From Raoultibacter phocaeensis (lineage in GTDB: Bacteria > Actinomycetota > Coriobacteriia > Coriobacteriales > Eggerthellaceae): DNA of 64,000 nt. Positions within the stretch are counted from its first letter, which is position 1. The number at the start of each line of letters is the position of its first letter. The DNA is taken from contig NZ_CABDUX010000002.1 in NCBI RefSeq assembly GCF_901411515.1, forward strand, positions 806,001 through 870,000, given 5' to 3'. Under the pieces are notes generated by a model that was not told the DNA's origin, did not search any database, and saw only the letters and a list, made by a program, of their open reading frames with translations. A program made the translations under genes and the position numbers. Positions 1,799 through 54,211 of this stretch are shown piece by piece.

Positions 1799-4600
1799 AT
1801 GGCCAGCATGCGTGTACATGAGTTGGCGAAAGAGTTCGGCATGTCCAGCAAGGAACTGCTCGATCGGCTCCAGGAGATGAAGATCCCTGCGAAGAGCCAT
1901 GCGAGCATGCTTGCAGATGCCTACGTAGCCAAAATCAGGAAGAACTTGGAGCCTGAGATAAAGCAGCGCGCCGGTCAGCTTGAGGATAAGGAAGCAGCCG
2001 CACTCGCCGAGGAGCAGCGCGCTCAGGCTGAGAAGAAGGCCGAAGAGGAGCGCAAGCGCCGCGAAGCGGTCGAAGAGGAGCGCAAGCGCCGCGAGGCGGA
2101 GCGTGCCCGTCGCATGGGGGATGCGCCCGCATCATCGGATTCGCAGGGGGAGGCGTCTTCCGAGGATGCGTCGGATGAGCGTGCTGCGAACCCGGCTCCC
2201 GCATCTTCGGCGTTCCAGAAGCTCGCGAGCCAGATAGAAAGCGAAAAGGAACGCGTGGCGCGCGAGGCCGAAGAGGCCAAGGCACGTGCCCGTGCTGCCA
2301 TCGCTGCCAAGGAAGTCGCCAAAAAGCAGGCTGTCGCCGAGGCGCTTGCGGCACGCAAATCGGGCGGCAAGGGCGCGAAGCAGTCCGAAGGCCCCAAAAA
2401 GGCCCCGGTGCTCGGCGCGAAGCCCAAATCGTCCTTCGACTCGCTGCTTTCACAGATCGAAAGCGAGAAGGCCCGCATCGAGCAGCAGAAATCCGAGCGC
2501 CAAAGCGCTCCCAGGCAGGGTGCAGCGAACCAACAGCGGCAGAAGCCGCAGCGCACCGATGCCAAAAAGCAGGCGACACCTAAGCAGGGCCAACAGAAAC
2601 GATTTGAGCCCGAGGTTCCCGAGCTCGTCGACCAGGCATCCGGTGAGGACCGCTACGCCCAGATGGCCGTTCAGGCCGAGAAGCTCCAGCGCGACAAGGT
2701 GCTTGCCGAGGCGCGCGCCGCGGTTGAGGCCGCTACGCAGGAGGGCGGCGAAGGCCGCCGTAAGAAGCGCAAGGAGAAGCGCGAGGCTGAGAACCGCGAG
2801 CGCTTGGAGCTCGAAGCCATCGAAAAGGGCCTCGATCCCACGCTCGTGCTTGACGATTCGGTTGTCGAGGTTCCGCAGGGCACCACGGTGTCCAAGTTTG
2901 CCGAACTGCTCGGCGTCGCGCCCAACGACATCATCAAGCGCCTGTTCATGCTCGGCCAGGTGCTCACGCTCACCCAGTCGATGGGCGACGATCTCATCGA
3001 GCTCATCGCCGACGACATGGGCCGCAAAGTGCGCGTCGTGTCTCCCGAAGAGGAATACGCCGTCGTGTACCACGATCGCGACGAGGATCTGAAGCCCCGT
3101 CCGCCGGTCGTTACCGTCATGGGCCACGTCGACCACGGCAAAACCTCGCTTCTCGACGCGATCCGCCATACGGGCGTTGTCGAAAGCGAAGCGGGCGGCA
3201 TCACCCAGCACATCGGCGCTTCGGTTGTCGAGATCGACGGACGCCAGATCACGTTCATCGACACGCCGGGCCATGAAGCGTTCACCGCCATGCGCGCCCG
3301 CGGTGCGCAGGTAACCGACGTCATCGTGCTCGTCGTTGCCGCTGACGACGGCGTTATGCCGCAGACCATCGAGGCCATCAACCACGCGAAGGCTGCCGAA
3401 GTGCCCATCGTCGTGGCTGTGAACAAGATCGACAAACCCGGTGCGAACCCCGACCGCGTGCGCCAAGAGCTTACCGAGTACGGCGTTATCCCCGAGGAAT
3501 GGGGCGGCACGAACATGTTCGTCGAGGTTTCCGCGAAACAGAAGCTGCACATCGACGACCTGCTCGAAACGATCCTTCTGCAGGCAGACGTGCTCGAACT
3601 CAAGGCGAACCCCGATGCCTTCGCTTCGGGCTTCGTCATCGAGGCGAACCTCGACAAGGGCCGCGGCCCTGTGGCTACCGTGCTCGTGCATCGCGGCACC
3701 TTGAGACCCGGTGATTCTATCGTGGCGGGGTCCTCCTACGGGCGCGTGCGTGCGCTCGTGAATCCGCGCGGCGCCCACGTCGAGGCTGCCTATCCCGCTG
3801 ATCCGGTGGAGATACTCGGCCTCAACTCGGTACCGACCGCAGGCGACGAATTCCGCGTGTTCGAAGACGAGCGCGATGCCCGCAAGCTCGCCGAGGAACG
3901 TGCGCTGCGCATGCGCCTCGCTGAGCAGGAAACGAAGTCTCATATGAGCCTCGACGACCTGTTCAGCCGTATCGAGGAAGGCAAGCAGACCGACTTGAAC
4001 CTCATTGTGAAGGCCGACGTGCAAGGCTCCATCGAGGCGCTGCGCGATGCGTTCGACAAGATGGACCAATCCGAGGTGCGCATCAACATCGTGCACTCGG
4101 CCGTAGGCGGCATCACCGAGACCGACGTCACGCTCGCTTCGGCGTCCGACGCCATCATCATCGGCTTCAACGTGCGCCCGACGGGCAAATCGAAGGTCCA
4201 AGCCGAGAAAGAAAAAGTGGACATCCGCCTGTACCGCGTCATCTACCAGGCGATCGAGGAGATCAACGCGGCGCGCGTGGGCTTGCTTTCGCCCGACATC
4301 GTCGAAGAGGACACCGGCATCGCCGAAGTCCGCGAGACGTTCAAGGTGCCGAAGGCCGGAACCATCGCCGGATGCTACATCGTCGAGGGCGAGATCTCAC
4401 GCGACGACAAGGTGCGCGTGGTCCGCGACGGTACCGTGGTGTTCGAAGGCACGATCGATTCGCTGCGCCGTTTCAAGGACGATGTGAAATCGGTCCGCAG
4501 CGGCTATGAGTGCGGCATCGGCATCACCGGCTATCAGGACATCAAGATCGGCGATACGATCGAGGGCTACAAAATCGTCGAAGTCGAGCGTACGGAATAG
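1799..4600 (+). CDS. infB: Translation initiation factor IF-2
   Basis: The 933-aa GTPase delivers initiator fMet-tRNA to the 30S subunit. An IF2_N module lies at about 3-55. A long, highly charged Ala/Glu/Lys-rich low-complexity region (about 60-330) follows, in which the motif SQIESEK occurs twice. A second IF2_N module lies near 355-410. The G domain starts around residue 438, with GHVDHGKT at 442-449, then DTPGHE and NKID, followed by the beta-barrel and C-terminal fMet-tRNA-binding domains. ATG at 1799 follows GAGGAG. A strong hairpin downstream (4631-4663) may separate it partly from rbfA. Confidence 0.98.
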
Positions 4601-4630
4601 CACAGGTTCGCTACGATAGTGCGCTCATGT

Positions 4631-4663
4631 CGATGGCTCGGAGTATCATGTACCGGGCCATCG
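4631..4663 (+). terminator. Hairpin between infB and rbfA
   Basis: An 11-bp stem with one G-T pair (4631-4641 with 4653-4663) encloses an 11-nt loop, 30 nt after the infB stop. No long T run follows, so it may act as an attenuator or an RNA-stability element rather than a full terminator. The operon order continues into rbfA. Confidence 0.5.
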
Positions 4664-4704
4664 GCGTTTGACCTCACCTCTTCTTCCGAAAGGAGACGGA
4701 CATC

Positions 4705-5148
4705 ATGAAACAAGGTTCTTCCAACCGCAAGGTTAACGAGCAGGCCCGCGAAGTCATCGCGAGCATCCTTCTGTTCGAGATATCCGATCCGCGCCTTGCG
4801 CTCGTCACCATCACGGGCTGCGAAGTGAGCTACGACCGCAGCGTCTGCAACGTCTTCTACACGACCGAACCCGAGCGCTACGAGGCGGTTGCCGATGCGT
4901 TCTCCAAAGCATCCGGCCGCATCCGCTCGCTCATGGCCAAGCAGCTGTCATGGCGCGTGGCGCCCGAGCTGCGCTTCATGCTCGACAAGAGCGTTGACGA
5001 GGCGGAGCGCATCGCGTCTGCCCTGCAGCGCGACGCGGTGCGCAATACGGCGAGCGGCCATGCCGACGGCGATGCGACCGCCGACGCATCAGGCGATGCA
5101 GCAGCCGCAAAGGATGCAGTCGATGTGCGCGAAACGGACGGTGAATAG
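4705..5148 (+). CDS. rbfA: 30S ribosome-binding factor RbfA
   Basis: The 147-aa protein has the RbfA KH-like core: NRKVNEQAREVIASILLFEISDPRLALVTITG-type features near the N-terminus and ELRFMLDKSVDEAERI near residue 100. RbfA acts in late 30S assembly and cold adaptation. ATG at 4705 follows AAGGAG at about 4690. The C-terminal 30 residues are Ala/Asp-rich and likely disordered. The stop codon directly abuts the GTG start of the next gene, indicating translational coupling. Confidence 0.93.
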   Translation: MKQGSSNRKVNEQAREVIASILLFEISDPRLALVTITGCEVSYDRSVCNVFYTTEPERYEAVADAFSKASGRIRSLMAKQLSWRVAPELRFMLDKSVDEAERIASALQRDAVRNTASGHADGDATADASGDAAAAKDAVDVRETDGE

Positions 5149-6174
5149 GTGGCAGTAACCCCGCAGACCAACTCCGATCTTGCCGGTATCGCAGAAGCGC
5201 TCCGTACGGCTGAGCGCTTCGCGGTATGCGGACACGTGAGCCCCGACGGCGATTGCCTCGGCTCGCAGCTCGTCGTCTACCATGCCCTCAGGACGCTCGG
5301 AAAAGACGTGACCTGCCTGCTTGCGAAACCCGATCCGATCGAGGCTGGCCTGTTGTTTCTGCCCGGCATCGAAGACATGGTCCCCGCCGCTGATTACGAC
5401 GGGGCGCCCGACGTGTTCATTGCCGTCGACGTGCCGACTCCCGAGCGCATGGGGGCTGCGGCGGCTGCCGTGCAGGCGCGTTCGCAGACTACGGTTACGA
5501 TCGATCACCATGCAGCCGATGATGCGATGTCAACCTATACCTTCGTCGATCCCGACGCAGCGTCCACGACGATGCTCGTGTGGGAGCTTGCCGGCCTGCT
5601 CGGCATCGAGCGCTCGCCTGAGATGGCAACGTGCGCCTATACGGGGCTCGTCACCGACACGGGCCGCTTCCAGTTCCAGAACACCGACCAGGCGGCGTTC
5701 GCGGCGGCCTTCGAGATGGTGCAGGCGGGGGCTGATCCCGCCGCCGTTGCCCGCGAAGTGTTCCAGAACCGCTCGATCGCATCGCTCGAGCTCGAGGGCA
5801 TCGCGCTTGCGCGCATGCGCTTCGGCATGGACGGAGCTTACGTTGCGAGTTACCTCACGCGTGAGGATTTTGAGAAGACCGGTGCCGTGAAGTCGGATGC
5901 CGAGCCGCTCATCAACACCATCAGGGCTGTCGCGGGAATCCGCGTCGCCTGCATGCTGCGCGAAGAGCCCGAGCACGTACGGGGCAGCTTTCGCGCGAAA
6001 GACGATACCGACGTCGCCGCCATCGCGCGCACGATGGGCGGGGGAGGCCATAGGGCTGCGGCCGGGTTCACGCTCTACGACTCGCTCGATCAGGCAATCG
6101 AGCGAGTCGATGCGGCTGTTGCCGCCGCCCTCGGTGCGAGCGGTCCTTCAGGTGACGGGAGTGCGCAACGGTGA
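5149..6174 (+). CDS. nrnA: DHH/DHHA1 phosphoesterase (NrnA-like nanoRNase/pAp phosphatase)
   Basis: The 341-aa cytoplasmic phosphoesterase carries the DHH family motifs in order: HVSPDGDCLGSQ (about 27-38), a DVPTPER metal-site segment, IDHHAADD (about 123-130) and TDTGRFQF (about 168-175). A C-terminal DHHA1 domain has the GGGGHRAAAG motif. Family members degrade short RNA oligonucleotides and dephosphorylate pAp. The GTG start directly follows the rbfA stop, and the end overlaps the truB start as GTGA. Placement between rbfA and truB is standard for Gram-positive NrnA genes. Specific substrate preference is inferred from family. Confidence 0.9.
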   Translation: MAVTPQTNSDLAGIAEALRTAERFAVCGHVSPDGDCLGSQLVVYHALRTLGKDVTCLLAKPDPIEAGLLFLPGIEDMVPAADYDGAPDVFIAVDVPTPERMGAAAAAVQARSQTTVTIDHHAADDAMSTYTFVDPDAASTTMLVWELAGLLGIERSPEMATCAYTGLVTDTGRFQFQNTDQAAFAAAFEMVQAGADPAAVAREVFQNRSIASLELEGIALARMRFGMDGAYVASYLTREDFEKTGAVKSDAEPLINTIRAVAGIRVACMLREEPEHVRGSFRAKDDTDVAAIARTMGGGGHRAAAGFTLYDSLDQAIERVDAAVAAALGASGPSGDGSAQR

Positions 6175-43532: not shown

Positions 43533-44918
43533 ATGAAGCTTGACCAACGATCCGACCTCTCGCTCCAGCAGCATTTGCACCTTACGACCGAACTGAAGCA
43601 GGGCATTGCCATTTTGCGCATGTCCGCATCCGAATTGAGCGAATACGCGCGTAAGTGCGTCGAGGAGAATCCGTTTTTCGACGAGGACGATTGGATCGAG
43701 CCGCGTCACCCGATGGTTCCCGAGCGCTACGAGCAGGATGTGAGCGCCGACGCGCTTTTCGAGAAGCGCGGGCACGGCAGCCCTGAGAACTTCGACCGGG
43801 AGCGCGGCGATATGTCGCAGCGCCAGTTCTCGTTCGACCGGTACCTCACGGTGGGGGATTCGCTTGACGAGCATCTCATCGACCAGCTGCGCATGCAGTC
43901 GGATTGCGAACGCACAACGGTCATCGGTTCGTACCTTATCGGCAACGTCGATGGAAACGGGTATCTGCAAGTTTCAATCGAGCAAGCTGCGGAAGCGCTC
44001 GGCGTACCCGCCTGCGACGTTGCTTCGGTGCTTGCGCTCATCCAGCAGTTCGAGCCGACCGGCGTCGGCGCGCGCAACCTTGCCGAGTGCCTCGAGCTGC
44101 AGTTGAGGAAAAACGGCGATTTGACCGCGACGCTCGAGCGTCTGATCAAAAACTACCTTTCCGATTTCGAGACGCGCACCCCGGCTTCCATTGCCAACAC
44201 GATGGGCATCACGCTTGCCGAGCTCAACGATGCGCTCGATGTCATCCGCACCTGCAACCCCCGCCCCGCGAGCCAGTTCGGCAGCCCTTCGCGCCCCGTT
44301 TGGCCGGAAGTGGTCGTGGAACTGCTTCCGGGCGGCGAGTACACGGTGAGCCTCCAGGATTTCTATCTGCCCCACATGAAGATCAACCCCACGTATCGCG
44401 CGCTTGCGTCGAGCACGAAAGAGCGCGAAACCCAGACCTACCTCAACGAGAAGCTCAAAGAAGCCGAAGGCCTCATCAACGGCGTCGCGTTCAGGCACGC
44501 GACGCTGTACAAGATCGCCTGCTGCATCGTGCAGATGCAGATCGAGTTCTTCGAGAAGGGCTACGATTGCCTGAGACCCCTTACCATGGCTCAGGTCGCC
44601 GAGGCCACAGGCGTTTCCGAATCGACAGTGAGTCGCGTGGCGAGCGACAACTACATGCAGACCCCGCGCGGCGTGTTCGAGCTGAGGTTCTTCTTCCACT
44701 CGTCGGCCTACCAGGCGGCCGATCGCGTAGTGTCGTCGGTGAGCGTGAAGCACCGCATCAGCGAGCTCATCGCAAAGGAAGATCCGTCGAATCCCCTGAG
44801 CGATCAGGCCATCTCGGAGCTGCTGGCCAAAGACGGCGTTGCGGTGTCGCGCAGAACGGTTAACAAGTACCGCGACGAGCTGGGTTTTCCCGCCCGATCG
44901 GCGCGTCGGCGCAGCTAG
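43533..44918 (+). CDS. rpoN: RNA polymerase sigma-54 factor
   Basis: The 461-aa factor directs RNA polymerase to -24/-12 promoters and needs an AAA+ activator. Region I is the Gln/Leu-rich N-terminus (LQQHLHLTTELKQGIAILRMS). The core-binding region covers about 110-300, a helix-turn-helix lies near MAQVAEATGVSESTVSRVAS (about 351-370), and the RpoN box is RRTVNKYRDE at 440-449. Next to it are two consensus sigma-54 promoters and one sigma-54 activator gene, so its regulon may be small and local. ATG at 43533 follows AGAGG. The gap to the dgt-like gene is a divergent promoter region. Confidence 0.96.
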   Translation: MKLDQRSDLSLQQHLHLTTELKQGIAILRMSASELSEYARKCVEENPFFDEDDWIEPRHPMVPERYEQDVSADALFEKRGHGSPENFDRERGDMSQRQFSFDRYLTVGDSLDEHLIDQLRMQSDCERTTVIGSYLIGNVDGNGYLQVSIEQAAEALGVPACDVASVLALIQQFEPTGVGARNLAECLELQLRKNGDLTATLERLIKNYLSDFETRTPASIANTMGITLAELNDALDVIRTCNPRPASQFGSPSRPVWPEVVVELLPGGEYTVSLQDFYLPHMKINPTYRALASSTKERETQTYLNEKLKEAEGLINGVAFRHATLYKIACCIVQMQIEFFEKGYDCLRPLTMAQVAEATGVSESTVSRVASDNYMQTPRGVFELRFFFHSSAYQAADRVVSSVSVKHRISELIAKEDPSNPLSDQAISELLAKDGVAVSRRTVNKYRDELGFPARSARRRS

Positions 44919-45250: not shown

Positions 45251-46495
45251 TTGACTAAAAAACAGAAGACGGCGGCCGCATGGGTCGTCGTGATCATCGC
45301 GTTCTTCGGCGGCTTCGCACTCGCCAATGTCCAAAACAAGACCCCACCGTGCCTCGATGTCATCATGCTGTACTTCAATATCGGCGAGACGGATGCGGGA
45401 TGGCTCACGTCGATATTCACCATTATGGGCATGGTCACCGCCATTCCCGCTTCCATGCTCATGCGCAAGCTCGGCCCGAAGAAGATCGGCGCCATATCGC
45501 TTGCATGCGCGGCCGTCGGCGGCATCATCGGCGCGTTCGCGACCGACCTGTCCGTGCTCATGGCAACCCGCGTGCTCGAAGGCGTCGGCGTCGGCATGAT
45601 CGCCGTCGTCGGTCCTGCGGTCATCGCGATGTGGTTCCCTGCCGAGAAGCGCGGTCTGCCCATGGGCCTGTGGGGCTCGTGGATGATGTGCTCGCAAACG
45701 CTTCTGTTCTTCATCGCGGGCGGTCTCACCACGGCGTTTGGCTGGCAGGGCGTATGGTGGTTCTGCGTCGCGTTCTGCGTCGTCGTGCTTGTCCTGTACA
45801 TGTGGAAGGTCGACGCGCCGCCCGAGGGCACCCCGAACTACGCAGAGGGCGAAGATGAGGAAGAATTCAAATTCGGCGACGGCTTCAAATCGGCTTCGAC
45901 CTGGATCCTCACGCTCGCCGGCACCATCTTCACGTTCTGCTGCTTCGGCTTTGCCACCTACATCTCGCTGTACTGGGCGCAGACGTTCTTCGGTGGCGAC
46001 ATGAACCAGTCAAACTGGTGGGTTTCCATCATGTACGCCATCGAGATCCCCGTGGTCATCCTGATCGGCTGGTTCCTGAACCATATTAAGATCAACAACC
46101 GCCGCTTCGTCGGCGTGGTCGGCTTCGCGCTGTACACGTTCATCCTGTTCTTCTGCTTCAGGATGAACGAGCCCGGCTTGCTGATCCCGTTCATCATCCT
46201 GTATCCGTTCCTCGAGGGCTCCATCCCGACCGTGTACTGGACGTTGATCGCTTCGACGGCGAAGAAGCCTGAATACTCCGGCACCGCCATCGGCATCCTG
46301 AACGTGGGATTGAACGTCGGCACGCTGCTTGGCCCCCCGGTAACCGGCTACTTCATCGAGTTCCACGGATGGGAAGCCGCTACCGTTCCTTTGGCTATCG
46401 CCTCCATCGTCGGAGCGATCCTGTTCATATTCGTGAAGACGTACGATCACGATTCGAGCAAGGCGACCTCGCGTGCGGAGAAGGCGAACAGCTAG
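45251..46495 (+). CDS. MFS transporter, first of a tandem pair
   Basis: The 414-aa carrier has 12 predicted membrane helices, a central cytoplasmic loop rich in acidic residues (EGEDEEEFKFGDG) and MFS motifs RKLGPKK between helices 2 and 3 and MWFPAEKRGLPMG around helix 4-5. TTG at 45251 follows AAGGAGG at ideal spacing. It is transcribed from the sigma-54 promoter at 45063-45078. It is clearly paralogous to the next gene (both share AxVQNK near helix 1, RVLEG/RVIEG and GPxxIAMWFP), consistent with import/export or exchange of related compounds. Substrate may be that of the downstream molybdoenzyme (inference). Confidence 0.88.
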   Translation: MTKKQKTAAAWVVVIIAFFGGFALANVQNKTPPCLDVIMLYFNIGETDAGWLTSIFTIMGMVTAIPASMLMRKLGPKKIGAISLACAAVGGIIGAFATDLSVLMATRVLEGVGVGMIAVVGPAVIAMWFPAEKRGLPMGLWGSWMMCSQTLLFFIAGGLTTAFGWQGVWWFCVAFCVVVLVLYMWKVDAPPEGTPNYAEGEDEEEFKFGDGFKSASTWILTLAGTIFTFCCFGFATYISLYWAQTFFGGDMNQSNWWVSIMYAIEIPVVILIGWFLNHIKINNRRFVGVVGFALYTFILFFCFRMNEPGLLIPFIILYPFLEGSIPTVYWTLIASTAKKPEYSGTAIGILNVGLNVGTLLGPPVTGYFIEFHGWEAATVPLAIASIVGAILFIFVKTYDHDSSKATSRAEKANS

Positions 46496-46542
46496 CACAG
46501 TATAGTGAGCAAGCGTATCAGTAATCGGAAGGATTGGGTTTT

Positions 46543-47766
46543 ATGAAAACGAAACGAGCCTGGATCGTCGCTTTTGCGACCATCTTCGCAGGAGTCTCCC
46601 TGGCGCTCGTGCAGAACAAAGTTGCACCCAGCATGACCACCTTGATGGAAGCGTTCAGCATCGACATGGCTACGGCCGGTTGGCTGAGTTCGCTCTTTTC
46701 CTTGGTGGGTATCGTGATCGCGATTCCGGCAGCCGTCATACTCAACAAGGTCGGACCGAAAAAAGGCGGCATCATCGCGCTTGCGTGCGCCGTCGGCGGC
46801 TCCCTCATCGGCATTCTCTCCGGGGGCAGCGTCGCGGTCCTCATGGCGAGCCGCGTCATCGAGGGCATGGGCGTCGGGCTGATGTCGGTCATCGGGCCAT
46901 CGCTCATCGCGATGTGGTTTCCCGAGGCGAAGCGCGGCTTGCCCATGAGCATTTGGGCAGCGTACCAGATGGGTGCGCAGGCCGTCATGTTCTTCTTGGG
47001 TGCCGTTCTCACCGCGAACTTCGGATGGCAAGGCGTGTGGTGGTTCGGGCTCGTTGCGTGCGTTGTCGCGCTCGTGTTCTACGTTGTCTGCGTGAAGAGT
47101 CCGCGGCCCGAAGACAGCTACGCGGATGTGGAAAGCGAGAACGTGTCCATTGCCGAGGGCATCAAATCCCCGTCGGCGTGGGTGCTTGCGTTGGCGACGA
47201 TGCTGTTCTGCATCGGCTGCTTCGGCTTCGTCAACTGGATAGCCACGTGCTGGGCTCAAACGTTCAGCTGGTCTGAGGGCGAGGCCAACATGTGGGTCGG
47301 CTACTTCTCCATATTCGGCGTCGTAGCGGCGGTCATCATCGGTGCGCTGCTCAACCGCGTCAAGAACCGCAAAATATTCGGCGTGGTCATGCTCGTGGCC
47401 TACGGTGCGGCATCGGTGTTCGGCATGTTCATGGACAATCCGAGCTTGCTCATCGGATTCGTGATCATTTACGGATTCGTCGATGCGGGTTTTCCGTGCG
47501 TGCTGTGGACCATGGCGGCCCAGACGGTCAAAAAACCAGAGCTTGCAGGCGTTGCTCTGGGCGTCGTATCGATCGGGTTCAACGTGGGTATCCTGCTCGG
47601 CCCCCCGATCATCGGAGCCATCGTGGAAGCTGCAGGCTGGCATGTGGGCGCACTCGCCATCTTCGCCTCCTGCGCGCTCGGTGCCGTGGTGCTGCTGTTC
47701 ACCAAGCTCTACAGTGCCGATGACGAACCGGCTCAAGAAGAATCTGTTGCACCTGCGCTCTCATAG
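46543..47766 (+). CDS. MFS transporter, second of a tandem pair
   Basis: The 407-aa carrier has 12 membrane helices and the same architecture as its upstream paralogue: NKVGPKKGG between helices 2-3, IEGMGVGLMSVIGPSLIAMWFP, and an acidic central loop. ATG at 46543 follows GGAAGGA; a TTG at 46534 is an alternative. Only 47 bp without a promoter separates it from the first MFS gene, so both share one transcript, which ends at the terminator at 47831-47866. The pair may form an exchanger set for the substrate and product of the nearby oxidoreductase (inference). Confidence 0.88.
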   Translation: MKTKRAWIVAFATIFAGVSLALVQNKVAPSMTTLMEAFSIDMATAGWLSSLFSLVGIVIAIPAAVILNKVGPKKGGIIALACAVGGSLIGILSGGSVAVLMASRVIEGMGVGLMSVIGPSLIAMWFPEAKRGLPMSIWAAYQMGAQAVMFFLGAVLTANFGWQGVWWFGLVACVVALVFYVVCVKSPRPEDSYADVESENVSIAEGIKSPSAWVLALATMLFCIGCFGFVNWIATCWAQTFSWSEGEANMWVGYFSIFGVVAAVIIGALLNRVKNRKIFGVVMLVAYGAASVFGMFMDNPSLLIGFVIIYGFVDAGFPCVLWTMAAQTVKKPELAGVALGVVSIGFNVGILLGPPIIGAIVEAAGWHVGALAIFASCALGAVVLLFTKLYSADDEPAQEESVAPALS

Positions 47767-48005: not shown

Positions 48006-48114
48006 AAGCGCGTGCGACGGACGGCATACGCGTGCGGACGCTTTGCGGTTAAAAAATTAATCACAAGCGTTTGAACAGGGAAAATAAGAAATTTTCAGTT
48101 AGTTTAGCCCCTGT

Positions 48115-48130
48115 TGGCACGGTGCATGCA
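48115..48130 (+). promoter_or_regulatory. Consensus sigma-54 promoter of the molybdoenzyme operon
   Basis: TGGCACGGTGCATGCA carries the -24 TGGCACG and -12 TGC with the required 10-bp spacing between GG and GC. It lies about 110 bp upstream of the first gene of the operon. Confidence 0.82.
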
Positions 48131-48242: not shown

Positions 48243-48416
48243 ATGGCAGAGAAGAAGAGGCTGGATTTGGACAAGGACTTCCAGGAGAAGCGCAAGACGC
48301 AGCACCTGGCCGATCCCGACAAGAACAAAGAGGCATGGGAGCAGAAGGCACAGGATGCTTCGGGGCGCGATTGGACGAAGCCTCGTCGTCCGACGTTGAA
48401 AGACGGAGAAGTGTAG
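48243..48416 (+). CDS. 57-aa charged protein at the head of the molybdoenzyme operon
   Basis: The protein is highly charged (Lys, Asp, Glu; about 45 percent) without cysteines or membrane helices, with RLDLDKDFQEKRKTQHLADP and PRRPTLKDGEV. I recognise no family. ATG at 48243 follows GGAGG at ideal spacing; in-frame ATGs at 48210 and 48237 are less well placed. It is the first gene after the sigma-54 promoter and 43 bp upstream of the oxidoreductase. It may be a dedicated chaperone or small subunit, but that is only inferred from position. Confidence 0.7.
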   Translation: MAEKKRLDLDKDFQEKRKTQHLADPDKNKEAWEQKAQDASGRDWTKPRRPTLKDGEV

Positions 48417-48459
48417 ATCCGCCAGACGAGGAGAATCAGAGAGAGAGGGATAGCAAGTT

Positions 48460-50799
48460 ATGCTTACCAATGAACTCGAAGGCGTCAACAAAGACGTCTA
48501 CAAAACCGATTGGCAATGGCAGGAAGGCGAGTACACGGTCACGCGTACGAACATGTGGACTGCCCCCGGTTGCCATAACGGTTGTTCCGTTCTGTACTAC
48601 ACCAAAGACGGCAAAGTCGAGAAAATCGAAGGCGATCCGCTTTCGCCGTACAACCAGGGCCGCCTTTGCATGCGCTGCCTGGACGTCGTTGAGACGTTCT
48701 ATCATCCGGACCGCTTGAAGTACCCCCTGAAGCGCGTCGGCGAGCGTGGCGAGAACAAGTGGGAGCGCATCACGTGGGACGAGGCGTACGACGACATCGC
48801 CGAGCATGTCCGCGCGATCTGGGACGAGTACGGCCCCGAGAGCATCGTCTCCATGCAGGGTACCGGCCGTAACATCTGCTGGCAGACCCCGTATCTGAGC
48901 TACGCCGCCTTCGGCAGCCCGAACTTCGTGCTCGGCTTCCTCTCCGGCGACGCCTGCTACCTGCCCCGTACCACTATCGGCCACTGCTTCATGGGCGACT
49001 TCTTCGTAGCCGACTGCTCGCAGCACCTCGAGAAGCGCTTCGCCGATCCCGAGTACGTGTTCCCCGACTACATGCTCATCTGCGGCAACAACGCGCTTGT
49101 CTCCAACGGCGACGGCTTCTTCGGCCACTGGATCGTCGACGTCATGAAGGAAGGCGGCACGAAGCTCATCGTGCTCGACCCCTCGTGCACCTGGCTCGCC
49201 TCCAAGGCAGAGCACTGGCTGCAGGTTCGTCCCGGCACCGACGCTGCGGTTGTCATCGCCATGCTCGGCGTTATCATCGAAGAAGACCTCTACGATCATG
49301 ACTTCGTTGAGAACTGGTGCTACGGCTTCGACGAGCTTGCCGAGCGCTGCAAGGAGTACAGCCCCGAGCGCGCTGCCGAAATCGCCGGCATTGACGCTGA
49401 GGCCATCCGCGCCGCCGCCCGTGCCTACGCAAGCGGCAACCCCTCCACCATCCAGTGGGGTCTCAAAGTCGACCAGACCGTCTGCGGCATCCCGCTGGCT
49501 CAGGCTCTGCTGTCCCTCGGTGCCATCTGCGGCGACATCGACGTGCCCGGCGGCATGATGATCCCGCGTTGCGCTTACGACATCCCCGACTCCTACGGCT
49601 GCGGCATGTGGAACCTCTCCGACGAGATGCTCGGCAAGATGCTCGGCGTCGACACCTCGCCTCTGCACGCCCTCGGCTTCGACCCGACGGCCAACGGCGA
49701 CACGGTCCTCGAGGCCATCGAGACCGGCGAGCCGTATCCGATCCGCATGCTGTTCATCCAGTCCACGAACCCGATCGCCAACATGGCCGCCGACGCCCCC
49801 CGCGTGTACCGCGCCATGCGCTCGGTCGACTACAACGTGGTCGTTGACGTGTTCATGACCCCCACGGCCGTTGCCTGCGCCGACATCGTGCTGCCCTGCG
49901 GCATGAGCTGCGAGCGTAACTCTGCCCGCGTGTGGTGGTGGCCGCTGCGCTCCATCGTCAAGGTCGCCGATTACTACGAGGCCAAGTCCGACGAGCAGAT
50001 CATCCTCGAGCTGGGCAAGCGCCTCAATCCCAGACTGTTCCCGTGGGAGACCGACGTCGAGCTCATGACGTGGTGGATCCAGTCGGGCAACCGCTTCCAT
50101 GCCGGTTGGCCGCACAAGACCGACCAGACGTTCCTCGATCTGACCGAGAAGGTCATCGACTGGCCGGACGACTGGGCGTACCGCAAGCACGAACTCGGCT
50201 GGCTGCGCGACGACGGACAGCCCGGATTCAACACGAATACCGGCAAGTGCGAGCTGTACAACACCCTGTTCGACGCGTGGGGCTTCGATCCGCTGCCGTA
50301 CTACGAGGAGCCGCCAGAGAGCCCGATCTCTACGCCCGATTTGTTCGCCGAGTATCCCTACGTGCTCACCACCGGTGCCCGTACGTGGGAGTACTTCCAC
50401 TCGGAAGAGCGTCAGGTTCCGCGTCTGCGCGAGTCGCATCCCGATCCGCTGACCGATCTGCATCCCGATACCGCCGCCAAGATCGGCGTCTGCGAGGGGG
50501 ATTGGATCTGGGTTGAGAACATGCGCGGCAAGTGCAAGCAGCGCGTGCGCTTCAACGCCTCTCTCAAGCCCGACACCGTGCGCTCCGAGCACGGCTGGTG
50601 GTTCCCCGAGACGGACGGCGCAGAGCCCAACCTGTTCGGTGTGTTCGATTCCAACATTAACAACCTGACGGTTCAGGGCGTAACCGGACCCACGCTCTAC
50701 GGTGCTCCGTACGCCAACCAGATCTGCAAGATATATCCGGTCACGGAGGAGAACGATTGCTCGCCGAGCGAGATCGTGACCCGCAAGGGAGGTTTCTAA
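48460..50799 (+). CDS. Molybdopterin oxidoreductase (DMSO reductase family) catalytic subunit
   Basis: The 779-aa enzyme has the bis-MGD fold: an N-terminal Cys motif with C38, C42, C70 and C73, the molybdopterin domain (TWDEAYDDIAEHVRAIW, MQGTGRN), a likely metal-ligand Cys166 in SGDACYLPR, and the C-terminal MoPterin-binding domain (VLTTGARTWEYFHSE, HPDTAAKIGVCEGDWIWVEN). It lacks a Tat signal, so it is probably cytoplasmic. The canonical first cysteine (CxxC) is absent: the motif reads CX3C-X27-CX2C. Gut Eggerthellaceae use relatives as catechol dehydroxylases and transhydroxylases. The substrate here is unknown. Confidence 0.92.
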   Translation: MLTNELEGVNKDVYKTDWQWQEGEYTVTRTNMWTAPGCHNGCSVLYYTKDGKVEKIEGDPLSPYNQGRLCMRCLDVVETFYHPDRLKYPLKRVGERGENKWERITWDEAYDDIAEHVRAIWDEYGPESIVSMQGTGRNICWQTPYLSYAAFGSPNFVLGFLSGDACYLPRTTIGHCFMGDFFVADCSQHLEKRFADPEYVFPDYMLICGNNALVSNGDGFFGHWIVDVMKEGGTKLIVLDPSCTWLASKAEHWLQVRPGTDAAVVIAMLGVIIEEDLYDHDFVENWCYGFDELAERCKEYSPERAAEIAGIDAEAIRAAARAYASGNPSTIQWGLKVDQTVCGIPLAQALLSLGAICGDIDVPGGMMIPRCAYDIPDSYGCGMWNLSDEMLGKMLGVDTSPLHALGFDPTANGDTVLEAIETGEPYPIRMLFIQSTNPIANMAADAPRVYRAMRSVDYNVVVDVFMTPTAVACADIVLPCGMSCERNSARVWWWPLRSIVKVADYYEAKSDEQIILELGKRLNPRLFPWETDVELMTWWIQSGNRFHAGWPHKTDQTFLDLTEKVIDWPDDWAYRKHELGWLRDDGQPGFNTNTGKCELYNTLFDAWGFDPLPYYEEPPESPISTPDLFAEYPYVLTTGARTWEYFHSEERQVPRLRESHPDPLTDLHPDTAAKIGVCEGDWIWVENMRGKCKQRVRFNASLKPDTVRSEHGWWFPETDGAEPNLFGVFDSNINNLTVQGVTGPTLYGAPYANQICKIYPVTEENDCSPSEIVTRKGGF

Positions 50800-50800
50800 G

Positions 50801-51145
50801 ATGGCGGAGAAATACGGACTTTTGATCGACTACCAGTGGTGCACCGGCTGCCACTCCTGCGAAATGGCCTGCAAGGTCGAGCATGGCTGGCAAGCGGGCG
50901 AGGCCAACGGCATCGTCTTGTTCGAAGATGGCCCGCGCTTGATGCCCAACGGTAAGTTCGAGTACAACTATCTGCCCGTTATGACGTCGCTGTGCGATCT
51001 GTGCGCCGATCGTACGGCTGCCGGCAAGCTTCCGACGTGCGTGCATCACTGCCAGGCGGCTTGCATGAAGTATGGTACGGTTGACCAGTTGGCCGAGATG
51101 GCCAAGGATATGCCCCGTAGTTGGGTGTACGTACCTGAGCAGTAA
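50801..51145 (+). CDS. Two-cluster [4Fe-4S] electron-transfer subunit
   Basis: The 114-aa protein carries CTGCHSCEMAC (CX2CX2CX3C) near residues 14-24 and a second set, CDLCADR plus CVHHCQAAC, towards the C-terminus, fitting two [4Fe-4S] clusters. It is much shorter than typical DmsB or NrfC subunits (about 200 aa, four clusters). It starts one base after the oxidoreductase stop with AAGGGAGG overlapping the stop region, so synthesis is coupled. It likely passes electrons to or from the molybdoenzyme; the outer electron partner is not encoded here. Confidence 0.9.
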   Translation: MAEKYGLLIDYQWCTGCHSCEMACKVEHGWQAGEANGIVLFEDGPRLMPNGKFEYNYLPVMTSLCDLCADRTAAGKLPTCVHHCQAACMKYGTVDQLAEMAKDMPRSWVYVPEQ

Positions 51146-51214
51146 ACCTGATCGTTCGTCGGTGCCCCGTATCGCCGCGGGGCACCGACCTCGACTGTGC
51201 ATAAGGAGATTGAG

Positions 51215-51481
51215 ATGTGTTACAGACCGGCTAATACCGTTACCATTGTCAAATGCCTCGAGTGCGGCGCGTTCAACAAGCCCACGAACGAGACGTGCCA
51301 GAAGTGCGGAGCGGACTTGAACGAGTCGCGTAAAGCCGCCGACGAGGCCGTAGCGCCCCCCTCGGGCAAACCCAAGGAGATTTCCCTTACGCCGCAGGGC
51401 CTCGACAACGCCCCGAAGGCTCCCGGAGGAGCACCGTCGGCCCCAAAAGCGCCCGGCGCCCCGAAACCTCCGACGAAGTAA
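51215..51481 (+). CDS. Small zinc-ribbon protein, operon accessory 1
   Basis: The 88-aa protein has one zinc ribbon, CLECGAFNKPTNETCQKCGA (CX2C-X10-CX2C), followed by a linker and a Pro/Ala/Lys-rich tail (GAPSAPKAPGAPKPPTK) that is likely disordered. ATG at 51215 follows AAGGAG 6 nt upstream. It is 69 bp after the Fe-S subunit gene without an intervening terminator, so it belongs to the operon. I know no function; a metal or cofactor delivery role is a guess. Confidence 0.72.
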   Translation: MCYRPANTVTIVKCLECGAFNKPTNETCQKCGADLNESRKAADEAVAPPSGKPKEISLTPQGLDNAPKAPGGAPSAPKAPGAPKPPTK

Positions 51482-51535
51482 GCACGCTGAGCCCGACGGC
51501 ATACAGCGCCTGTTTCAGAATGAGGCGAAACGCTC

Positions 51536-51868
51536 ATGCCTAACTGCAGGACATGCAGCCCGTGGTGTCGTCGTTGCCACAAGAAAGCCGAATACAAGTT
51601 TCCCATCGAGTGTCCCGAATGCGGGTGGTACAACCCCTACGAGCGGGAAACCTGTAAGAAGTGCGGGGCGCCAGTAGCTCATGATGAAGAAAAGGCGGTT
51701 ACTCACCTCAACACCGAGGTGAAGAAATCCTGCTTCTTCTGCACGCCGTTCGAAAGGCCGCTGTGCAACGAATGCGTCGAAAGGGGTCGAACGAAGGTGT
51801 GTCCGGAATGCGGCAGCTACGCGTTGAGTACGCGGACTGTCTGCAAGAAATGCGGACACGTGTTCTGA
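51536..51868 (+). CDS. Cys-rich double zinc-ribbon protein, operon accessory 2
   Basis: The 110-aa protein contains at least three CX2C-type ribbons: CPECGWYNPYERETCKKCGA, CFFC with CNEC, and CPECGSYALSTRTVCKKCGH. An extra N-terminal group reads CRTCSPWCRRC. Its first ribbon resembles that of the upstream protein. ATG at 51536 follows GAGG. It is the last gene before the terminator at 51958. The density of zinc sites is unusual for a molybdoenzyme operon, and no known maturation factor looks like this to me. Confidence 0.72.
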   Translation: MPNCRTCSPWCRRCHKKAEYKFPIECPECGWYNPYERETCKKCGAPVAHDEEKAVTHLNTEVKKSCFFCTPFERPLCNECVERGRTKVCPECGSYALSTRTVCKKCGHVF

Positions 51869-51957: not shown

Positions 51958-51996
51958 GGGCTGGGAAGTGGATACCGCTTGTCCCAGCCCTTTTTT
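51958..51996 (+). terminator. Intrinsic terminator of the molybdoenzyme operon
   Basis: GGGCTGGGA (51958-51966) pairs perfectly with TCCCAGCCC (51982-51990) and is followed by TTTTTT. It ends the operon and sits 32 bp from the convergent activator gene's stop codon. Confidence 0.9.
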
Positions 51997-52027: not shown

Positions 52028-54211
52028 TTACGAATCTTTGAGTTTGCGGTACAGCGTCGCCTTGCTGATGTTGAGAATGCCAGCCGCTGCCGCAATGTTG
52101 CCGCCGGCTTGCTTGATCGCCTCGTCGATGGCGATGCGCTCGAGTTCGCCGAGCGAAAGCGTCGGCAACGTCGTGCTCTGGCCGGCACTGGCAGGCACGG
52201 ACGGGGCGGACGGATGAGAATCGTGTACCTTGACAGATGAAGACGATTCTGGGGAAGATGCCGCATCGGGTGTCGGGGGGGGGTTCAACGCCTTGTCTGC
52301 CGGTGCGTGATAGCTGCCGTTCTGCGCGATGTAGAGCGGGAAGTCGTCGATGGTAATGATTCCGTTTTCGCACGTGTAATACGCCGAGTATATGGCGTGC
52401 TTGAGTTGGCGCACGTTGCCCGGCCACGAGTAGGTGCGCACGAAGTGCTCGGCGTCGTCGGAAAGGGCGACCTTGCCGTTGCCGGTTCTTACTTGGCATT
52501 CGTTGAGGAAGAATCGGGCGAAGTAGAGTGCGTCGTTGCCGCGTTCGCGCAGGGGCGGAAGGTTGACGGTGAGCACCGAGATGCGGTAGAGGAGGTCTTC
52601 GCGGAACCGATGCTCGCTTACGAGCAAGGGGAGGTTCTGGTTCGTTGCGGCGATGAGGCGGAAATCGATCTGCTTGTACGATTTACCGCCCACGCGGATG
52701 ACGCGCTTGTTCTCGAGTACGCGCAAAAGCGTTGCCTGGAGTTCGAGGGGCATGTCGCCGATTTCGTCCAGAAAAAGGGTGCCGCCTTCGGCGAGCTCGA
52801 TCTTGCCGGGCTTGCCTCCTTTTTCCGCGCCGGTGAAGCTGCCGCTCTCGTATCCGAACAGCTCGCTTTCGATGAGGCGCGGCGGAATGGCTGCACAGTT
52901 GATAGACATGAACGGACCGTTCGGACACGCCTGGTTATGGATGGCCTGGGCGAACAGCTCCTTTCCCGTACCGCTTTCTCCGACGAGCAGGATGTTCTCG
53001 CTCGATCGGGCGAAGCGCGAAGCGAGCGTTTTCGCCTTGGTGATCTGCTCGCTCTCCCCAAGAATGTCCTTGAACTGGATTTCCGCAGCGTCGCCGACTT
53101 TGCCGCGCGAAGCCCCGAGCGTCGCGCGCTTGGTTTCCTTCAGCGATATGATGTAGCCTTCGAGATCGTTCTCGGAGCCCGATATTTGCGAGATCTTCGT
53201 ATCGTGCAGCTCGTCGCCGATGATGGCTGTGGTCGAGCCCCCTTGCTCGACGATCTCCCTGAACGACCGACCGTCCCCAACGAGGGATCGCGCGTCGGTG
53301 CCGAGCAGGTCTTCGGGCGGTACCTTGAACAGGTGGGCGGCCTCAGGTGTGGCAAGGGTTATAAAACCCTCGGTGTTGCAGATCAGAATACCGTCTTTCA
53401 CCGTGTTGATGACGGTGCGCGAAATGCTCTCGAACCGCTGGGCCTCAAGCGACGCTTCGCTGTACTTCTGCTCGGTTTCGGCGAGTTTCGCATCGTATTG
53501 GTTGAGGCGCAGCTGGTCGCTTAAGGCGATGGCGATCGAAGAAGCGAGGCTCATCGCGTGGACGAGGATCTTCTCGTCGGACGACGAGAGGGGCCCTTCG
53601 GGAATCGACTGGGTGAGCGTGATCGCGGCGACGCCCGTGTCGAACTGGTCGATGACCGGTGCTGCGCACGCTATGAGGCCTTGCAGGCCGAAGCAGTAGT
53701 GCTCGGGACCGACGACGACGAACGGTTTTTTGTGGCGCATGCACAGGCTGTGCGCGTTCGTGCCGACGTTTGCCTCGTCGCAGCGGTAGTTCGGGCCGAC
53801 GAACTGGTGCTGTTCGAGATTTCCCACCTGCACGAGCGCGATGCCGCTCGCGTCGAGCAGCTCGAAGATGTAGTCGTTCTGCAAGTTGAGCGATTCGATG
53901 TTCCTGATGAGCGATCGGGCCGTTTGCACGATCTCGGCATGGTCGGAAAGCGAGCGCTCGAGGTCTTCTTCGGTGATGTGCTCGCCGAGGTTCGCATCGT
54001 CGGCTTTAAGGCCGCTGTTATACGAGCGGATCCATGACTCGGCGATCTCGGGCCGCACGCAGCTGTGGAGGCGCGGGTCGGTGCCGTTGTTGAGGAAATC
54101 GAGCTTCGCATCGAAGATGCAATCCCAGAAAGAATCGTCTTCTCGTATGGATCTGATCAACTGGAGGTCTTCCACGTAATCAGAATTCATGGTACCTGCA
54201 GCGTTGTCCAT
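52028..54211 (-). CDS. Sigma-54-dependent transcriptional activator (AcoR-like: GAF, PAS, AAA+, Fis HTH)
   Basis: The 727-aa activator has an AcoR-type N-terminus (RPEIAESWIRSYNSG) and a GAF domain (about 85-230, GTNAHSLCMRHKKPFVVVG, CAAPVIDQ). A PAS domain follows (about 265-345), then an AAA+ domain with Walker A GESGTGKE near 407, GSFTGA (a GAFTGA variant) near 455 and FRLIAATN. A Fis-like helix-turn-helix ends the chain (GGNIAAAAGILNISKATLYRKL). It probably senses a small molecule through GAF/PAS and activates the two nearby -24/-12 promoters (inference). It is convergent with the molybdoenzyme operon. ATG at 54211 is weakly supported; 54190 is possible. Confidence 0.94.
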   Translation of the reverse strand: MDNAAGTMNSDYVEDLQLIRSIREDDSFWDCIFDAKLDFLNNGTDPRLHSCVRPEIAESWIRSYNSGLKADDANLGEHITEEDLERSLSDHAEIVQTARSLIRNIESLNLQNDYIFELLDASGIALVQVGNLEQHQFVGPNYRCDEANVGTNAHSLCMRHKKPFVVVGPEHYCFGLQGLIACAAPVIDQFDTGVAAITLTQSIPEGPLSSSDEKILVHAMSLASSIAIALSDQLRLNQYDAKLAETEQKYSEASLEAQRFESISRTVINTVKDGILICNTEGFITLATPEAAHLFKVPPEDLLGTDARSLVGDGRSFREIVEQGGSTTAIIGDELHDTKISQISGSENDLEGYIISLKETKRATLGASRGKVGDAAEIQFKDILGESEQITKAKTLASRFARSSENILLVGESGTGKELFAQAIHNQACPNGPFMSINCAAIPPRLIESELFGYESGSFTGAEKGGKPGKIELAEGGTLFLDEIGDMPLELQATLLRVLENKRVIRVGGKSYKQIDFRLIAATNQNLPLLVSEHRFREDLLYRISVLTVNLPPLRERGNDALYFARFFLNECQVRTGNGKVALSDDAEHFVRTYSWPGNVRQLKHAIYSAYYTCENGIITIDDFPLYIAQNGSYHAPADKALNPPPTPDAASSPESSSSVKVHDSHPSAPSVPASAGQSTTLPTLSLGELERIAIDEAIKQAGGNIAAAAGILNISKATLYRKLKDS

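Follow-up and report, generated by a model that had tools for sequence, protein, structure and literature searches.

In Raoultibacter phocaeensis a molybdoenzyme without a Tat signal is encoded together with two small cysteine-rich proteins of 88 and 110 aa which, judged from their sequences, belong to two so far unnamed zinc-ribbon families. As these proteins are conserved, are linked to molybdoenzymes of the cytosolic type and are absent near the Tat type, we take them as accessory proteins: with somewhat less than even confidence, we suggest that both are dedicated to the cytoplasmic maturation or assembly of the non-Tat molybdoenzymes of the Coriobacteriia. The window that we analyzed is a stretch of 64,000 nucleotides (contig NZ_CABDUX010000002.1, positions 806,001 to 870,000) of a genome of 3.86 Mb. 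It contains an operon of five genes on the forward strand (48243–51868) which code, in this order, for a 57-aa protein, the 779-aa enzyme, a 114-aa 4Fe-4S protein, the 88-aa ribbon protein and the 110-aa ribbon protein. The features of the operon and its surroundings, in window coordinates, are:

43533–44918, forward strand: rpoN (sigma-54), with the sole PF04552 match in the genome (C2:850436-850912, which is 44436–44912 of the window)
45251–46495, forward strand: MFS transporter 1 (PF07690, E 1e-54), a neighbor of the cassette in other loci too
46534–47766, forward strand: MFS transporter 2 (PF07690, E 1.8e-49), likewise a neighbor of the cassette in other loci
48114–48130, forward strand: candidate sigma-54 (-24/-12) promoter TTGGCACGGTGCATGCA, a pattern match with a similar site in homologous loci
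48243–48416, forward strand: 57-aa charged protein, a conserved open reading frame with dN/dS of 0.06–0.22
48460–50799, forward strand: catalytic Mo-bisMGD enzyme of 779 aa that lacks a Tat signal and has acetylene hydratase (2e7z) as its best solved relative
50801–51145, forward strand: small 4Fe-4S partner of 114 aa, conserved, PF13247 barely over the cut-off
51158–51189, forward strand: RNA hairpin at the boundary between enzyme genes and ribbon genes, with a strong stem in 13 of 14 loci and covariation
51215–51481, forward strand: 88-aa MC[FY]RP zinc-ribbon protein with Pro/Ala tail, with residues invariant in 33 sequences
51536–51868, forward strand: protein of 110 aa with C-x2-C-x3-C-x2-C at the N-terminus and ribbons after it, eight CX2C pairs in all, conserved in orthologues
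about 51958–51996, forward strand: terminator-like hairpin followed by T6, from reading the sequence and folding
52028–54211, reverse strand (convergent): sigma-54-dependent activator with PAS, AAA and HTH_8 domains (PF00158, E 1.6e-62)

An earlier note on this DNA had placed three small open reading frames in the operon, and all three are found where it had put them. It had also described their ribosome binding sites as strong, which is true for the 57-aa gene (GGAGGG before the ATG at 48243) but not for the 110-aa gene, where GAGG ten bases before the ATG makes a moderate site. The single terminator that it had proposed is only part of the picture: a terminator-like hairpin does follow the last gene (it is absent from the list of our pattern scan, as its loop exceeds the limit of the scan), but a further hairpin parts the ribbon genes from the enzyme genes. 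The strong stem of this second hairpin folds in all loci but L056. In the alignment 90% of the cells are paired and 17 cells have changed on both sides, and the covariation score is 0.374 compared with 0.06–0.17 in slid controls. In locus L055 the hairpin is followed by T6 and looks like a terminator. We infer that the hairpin could lower the expression of the ribbon proteins relative to the enzyme.

Among the relatives with solved structure, and only among these, acetylene hydratase is the closest to the 779-aa enzyme (2e7z, E 2.8e-93); pyrogallol transhydroxylase is matched with E 4.8e-8 (4v4c). In passages of the literature, acetylene hydratase is also described as the closest characterized relative of the catechol dehydroxylases, of which the Gordonibacter ones have no Tat signal and are accompanied by genes for a small 4Fe-4S protein and for MFS transporters (PMC7028382). 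The enzyme of the window has the Mo-bisMGD fold and, as far as these sources describe them, Dodh, Cldh, Gp Hcdh and Gs Vadh share with it the missing Tat signal, a length of about 770–780 aa, the adjoining small 4Fe-4S protein, the MFS transporters nearby and the relation to acetylene hydratase (PMC7028382, PMC11585353, PMC11887054). It thus resembles the Gordonibacter-type catechol dehydroxylases, the likeness being one to published descriptions and not to sequences. Nevertheless, there are differences. In the passages considered Gordonibacter-type enzymes are called two-subunit enzymes (PMC11887054), and Gp Hcdh, which was purified natively, is described with two subunits (PMC11585353), whereas the operon described here adds two zinc-ribbon proteins and the 57-aa protein; the word "zinc" is absent from the main texts of both papers. 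In addition, Gp Hcdh and Gs Vadh are described with regulators of the LuxR or LysR type, whereas our operon is probably controlled by sigma-54. Gs Vadh is active when it is expressed in a Gordonibacter host from a cluster that is described, in the part of the source considered, without ribbon proteins (PMC11887054), and this host may supply them.

The 88-aa protein, whose gene starts with the ATG at 51215, has one ribbon (C-x2-C-x10-C-x2-C) and a Pro/Ala tail, as the earlier note had described, and a fifth cysteine at position 2. It shows every feature of a family, here family A, with an MC[FY]RP head, one ribbon and then a tail of Pro, Ala and Gly. In the 33 sequences of this family M1, C2, R4, P5 and the four ribbon cysteines are invariant, the invariance of the head being partly a matter of choice as the sequences were gathered by it. 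The 110-aa protein had rightly been called rich in cysteines; the earlier note counted at least three CX2C pairs, and there are eight (16 cysteines), with all 16 cysteines invariant in 14 orthologues. It represents a second family (B) with two close CX2C pairs as head, followed by ribbons, in which eight cysteines are invariant in 26 sequences, which were likewise gathered by their head. Similar small ribbon proteins recur beside paralogous enzymes. A third small ribbon kind (C), with GGFRPPP before a single ribbon, accompanies some of the enzymes, often with an MC[FY]RP gene as well (loci L072-L074, L078, L079, L084-L087, L091, L097, L098).

In the profile searches the ribbon proteins fall outside the curated families, as Pfam and NCBIfam give generic zinc-ribbon models only. 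At the Pfam cut-offs the 110-aa protein is just over for PF13248 and PF13240, and the 88-aa protein is under for all models (DZR, Zn_ribbon_3 class). The zinc-ribbon model DZR matches 32 of the 33 MC[FY]RP members, and RUBY_RBDX, the rubredoxin-like domain of rubrerythrin and as such of an iron-binding kind, weakly matches five of them. Compared with solved structures, the ribbon profiles find mostly generic ribbons and zinc fingers such as those of the ribosomal proteins L40e and L32, LysW and subunits of RNA polymerase. An AlphaFold2 model of the 110-aa protein built with 14 orthologues is too poor to use (mean pLDDT 62, pTM 0.34). Under the terms searched we found no description of the ribbon families in the main texts of the literature, supplementary files being outside this search; by their titles, the matches listed for "MCFRP" concern Babesia, materials and immunology.

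The cassette is well conserved. Of the 138 genomes of the family, 14 contain a full-length homologue (E below 1e-30) of the 110-aa protein and 13 contain one of the 57-aa protein, at the same loci and with a gene order that is constant across the homologous loci; in the one locus without a 57-aa gene the contig stops inside the enzyme gene. Three further genomes carry the cassette with an enzyme that is 84–85% identical and a 110-aa protein that is 48–52% identical, and two of these three show a trace of the 57-aa protein. The cassette is thus kept across genera and families. Against eight loci the dN/dS values are 0.06–0.22 for the 57-aa, 0.05–0.19 for the 88-aa and 0.04–0.17 for the 110-aa protein, calculated from usable dS only, as dS is saturated for the 88-aa and 110-aa proteins in the comparison with locus L055. 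The three small proteins of the cassette are under strong purifying selection, and these values rule out that they are chance open reading frames. The identity of the enzyme is 94–99% within Raoultibacter and Gordonibacter and at least 85% in the orthologue group, followed by a gap down to the paralogues at 60%, in a ranking with at most seven candidates scored per genome.

The 57-aa protein has a different distribution from the ribbon proteins. It has no match in Pfam or NCBIfam and carries a conserved GRDWTKP motif near its C-terminal end. This motif was found only beside this enzyme, and no relative of the protein was found beside the paralogous enzymes. Its earlier description as a molybdoenzyme partner is therefore borne out as far as its conservation goes but has to be narrowed, as it is confined to this one enzyme. 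It is probably a further partner, private to this enzyme.

The linkage of the ribbon proteins to molybdoenzymes can be seen best in the genome itself, which has 86 distinct genes for molybdoenzymes (molybdopterin oxidoreductases), about 30 of them Tat-exported and 56 non-Tat (the Tat type was called with a regular expression, and one protein that it had missed, C2:914623, was reassigned by eye). Two of these genes, C2:153321-154598 and C2:914623-916329, each contain one in-frame TGA, possibly a selenocysteine codon. When the whole genome was searched with the profile of family A, 32 matches were obtained, including all 22 proteins with MC[FY]RP head that were seen in the extracted stretches. 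Of these 22 genes, 18 lie less than 3 kb from a molybdoenzyme gene (17% of the genome lies within this distance, which sets the expectation), 16 of the 18 on the same strand, and 21 lie within 5 kb. When only the MC[FY]RP genes outside the profile-building set are counted, 12 of 16 are within 3 kb (p 6e-7). The neighbors are not drawn evenly from the two types of enzyme: an MC[FY]RP gene is found within 3 kb of 20 of the 56 non-Tat enzymes and of none of the 30 Tat enzymes (Fisher 8e-5). The other 36 non-Tat enzymes either use an MC[FY]RP protein in trans, in common with other enzymes, or have no need of one.

The same picture is obtained beyond this genome. Among the 138 genomes of the family, family A (E up to 1e-10) is present in 49, a close relative of the enzyme in 57 and both in 47. 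A class-wide sample of 396 genomes has family A in 50, including 14 that do not belong to the family, and a phylum-wide sample of 396 has it in three, all inside the family. We also inspected 20 further MC[FY]RP loci which were chosen blind to enzymes, namely the 12 best-listed matches from outside the family and eight matches inside the family that had not been seen beside an enzyme: 16 of them have a molybdoenzyme of the cytoplasmic type within about 6 kb and none has one of the Tat type. Recurrence of the homologues beside molybdoenzymes had been set beforehand as the test of a molybdoenzyme partner, and the proposal has passed it both in this genome and in the further loci.

When counted from the enzymes, 65 of the 95 that are present in the extracted loci and align over at least 600 aa have a ribbon gene within 2.5 kb; family A is found beside 53, family B beside 34 and kind C beside 14. 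The 12 orthologues all have families A and B and none has kind C. At 50–62% identity there are 60 enzymes, 28 with family A, 19 with B, 14 with C and 38 with any of these; among the 23 enzymes below 50% the numbers are 13, three, none and 15. The 60 paralogue regions were taken from the enzyme ranking, with loci of the own genome preferred in the third batch, and were picked after ribbon proteins had already been seen beside some of them, and the counts should be read accordingly. Ribbon and enzyme have also diverged together, as their distances correlate with a Mantel r of 0.81 (50 pairs) and, after thinning, of 0.38 (18 pairs; three of 2000 permutations as high). This co-divergence, modest after thinning, would fit a partner adapted to its enzyme, and shared descent as an operon predicts the same.

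The partnership of MC[FY]RP proteins with molybdoenzymes is strong, yet it is not exclusive. Four MC[FY]RP loci have no molybdoenzyme in the extracted stretch (L252, L253, L255 on a 4.4-kb contig, and L266), and neighbors other than molybdoenzymes were inspected only at these four. At L253 a gene for a Tat flavoprotein (3854-5809, reverse strand) has the MC[FY]RP gene directly upstream. In this genome one of the 22 MC[FY]RP genes is a fusion: at L191 (4501-6153, forward strand) the head is joined in frame to what seems to be a C-terminal flavoprotein half, and the N-terminal half of this flavoprotein, which carries the Tat signal, stops at 4488. From the fusion, the neighboring Tat flavoprotein and the loci without molybdoenzyme it is possible that the role of MC[FY]RP proteins is wider than molybdenum and that other redox enzymes, too, make use of the head.

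The operon is likely under the control of sigma-54, as -24/-12 sites, rpoN and an activator are found alongside. Seven of 12 homologous loci have such a site 99–153 bp before the 57-aa gene, or eight of 13 when the window is included; at L054, one of the five loci without it, the sequence before the gene is only about 80 bases long. Over the whole genome the pattern is no more frequent than in the reversed control (two forward matches against two and two), and it is the conservation upstream of the cassette which makes the site a candidate. A search for sigma-70 promoters gave one consensus match, which equals the chance expectation. The gene rpoN adjoins the cassette also in L046-L050, L059 and L259, and does so in several other genera; the position of the only rpoN of this genome next to the operon could mean that sigma-54 is retained mostly for this pathway. 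Eight of the 14 extracted loci have a near-complete relative of the activator and a ninth has a fragment, and at L050, L055 and L056 the cassette is present and the activator was not found in the extracted stretch.

How the ribbon proteins act on the enzyme can be approached by weighing the accessory role against its main rival, according to which they are small stable subunits or parts for scaffolding or electron transfer, possibly iron-binding mini-rubredoxins, that link the enzyme to its donor or to a larger assembly. We regard this as possible but doubtful. That they share an operon with the 4Fe-4S protein and co-diverge with the enzyme would be natural for subunits, and the weak RUBY_RBDX matches would suit a rubredoxin; on the contrary, the DZR model, which fits nearly all members, speaks for a zinc ribbon. 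In addition, a subunit should accompany its enzyme, and the 4Fe-4S gene indeed adjoins 76 of the 84 enzymes that have at least 1 kb of sequence on both sides, whereas a same-strand MC[FY]RP gene is near only 41 of these 84. These numbers rule out that the ribbon proteins are obligate subunits encoded beside every such enzyme, and they suggest that many enzymes share an MC[FY]RP protein in trans or do without. Taken together with the description of Gp Hcdh as a purified two-subunit enzyme, in the passages considered (PMC11585353), and with the hairpin just before the ribbon genes, they lead us to favor a helper over a subunit.

The same hairpin, being conserved and lying just upstream of the ribbon genes, might also point to nucleic-acid-binding regulators which tune the transcription or translation of the molybdoenzyme operon, and ribosomal and RNA-binding proteins are among the generic ribbon matches. 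This appears improbable to us, as the ribbon genes follow the type of enzyme, with none at the 30 Tat enzymes, and not the sigma-54 activator, which was not found in the extracted stretches of L050, L055 and L056; generic ribbon models aside, the proteins of the window match no DNA-binding family in Pfam or NCBIfam. Least probable are general zinc-ribbon proteins of the cell that stand beside molybdoenzymes by chance or because these enzymes are so abundant. It is true that the genome holds 86 molybdoenzyme genes and that Pfam recognizes nothing but generic ribbons, but 18 of 22 MC[FY]RP genes fall into 17% of the genome, none is near the 30 Tat-type enzymes, and the cassette is conserved across genera and families.

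As accessory proteins, the ribbon proteins might work as follows. A ribbon protein would bind the nascent or apo form of the catalytic subunit in the cytosol through a ribbon adapted to this enzyme, and would keep the bound subunit competent for the insertion of the 4Fe-4S cluster and of Mo-bisMGD. The subunit would then be passed to the shared cofactor machinery, perhaps by means of the uniform MC[FY]RP head and the Pro/Ala tail. A uniform head and tail combined with a variable ribbon suggests an adaptor that connects many different enzymes to a single common partner. The ribbon proteins, which presumably hold zinc as their metal, are probably made below the level of the enzyme, given the hairpin preceding their genes, and would then be sub-stoichiometric to it.

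Many Tat-exported molybdoenzymes have chaperones of the TorD/NarJ type, and TorD-type proteins are larger helical proteins which bind Tat signals. The ribbon proteins described here are different in that they are small and rich in cysteines and are encoded beside enzymes without Tat signals. In agreement with the earlier note, which had seen no resemblance to chaperones of the TorD/DmsD type, no match to the TorD or DmsD families was found in Pfam or NCBIfam, and FdhE was not matched either, neither in Pfam (E up to 1) nor with sequence profiles among the solved structures (E up to 10). On these searches we reject relatedness by homology to FdhE or TorD. There are nevertheless parallels in the parts of the literature considered: TorD, DmsD and NarJ as well as DadhD-H, the accessory proteins of Dadh, are enzyme-specific and encoded beside the molybdoenzyme, as are the ribbon proteins, and the Tat-type catechol dehydroxylases need enzyme-specific accessory proteins, one of them TorD-like (PMC11887054). 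For formate dehydrogenases there are FdhD and FdhE. The second of these is rubredoxin-like, with four conserved CX2C motifs that are needed for activity, and resembles our proteins in bearing CX2C motifs and in its dedication to particular molybdoenzymes (PMC10609526). The formate dehydrogenases served by FdhE are periplasmic and exported by Tat, whereas the ribbon proteins go with cytosolic enzymes, and for dehydroxylases of the cytosolic type no accessory proteins are described in the passages of literature examined. By analogy, the ribbon proteins are best read as functionally parallel to TorD/NarJ or FdhE, though unrelated to them.

The catechol dehydroxylases of the gut determine what becomes of dietary polyphenols and of neurotransmitters. 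How much their production may depend on accessory proteins can be seen from Dadh, whose expression failed in several hosts until the accessory genes were supplied in Gordonibacter, according to the passages considered (PMC11887054). Should the accessory factors that the cytosolic type is still missing be these ribbon proteins, the MC[FY]RP signature would flag molybdoenzyme clusters that have so far gone unrecognized, and molybdoenzymes that lack a Tat signal would have a class of chaperones of their own. A bolder proposal, which we consider rather unlikely and put forward as speculation, is that a maturation system dedicated to cytosolic Mo-bisMGD enzymes has arisen in the Coriobacteriia, in which very small zinc-ribbon adaptors, each with a ribbon that fits its enzyme, dock with their uniform Cys-(Phe/Tyr)-Arg-Pro head and uniform Pro/Ala tail on one shared cofactor-insertion machine. 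If this were true, zinc-ribbon adaptors would replace the chaperones of the TorD/NarJ type for enzymes without Tat signals, and this would help to explain how dozens of molybdoenzymes run side by side in these genomes.
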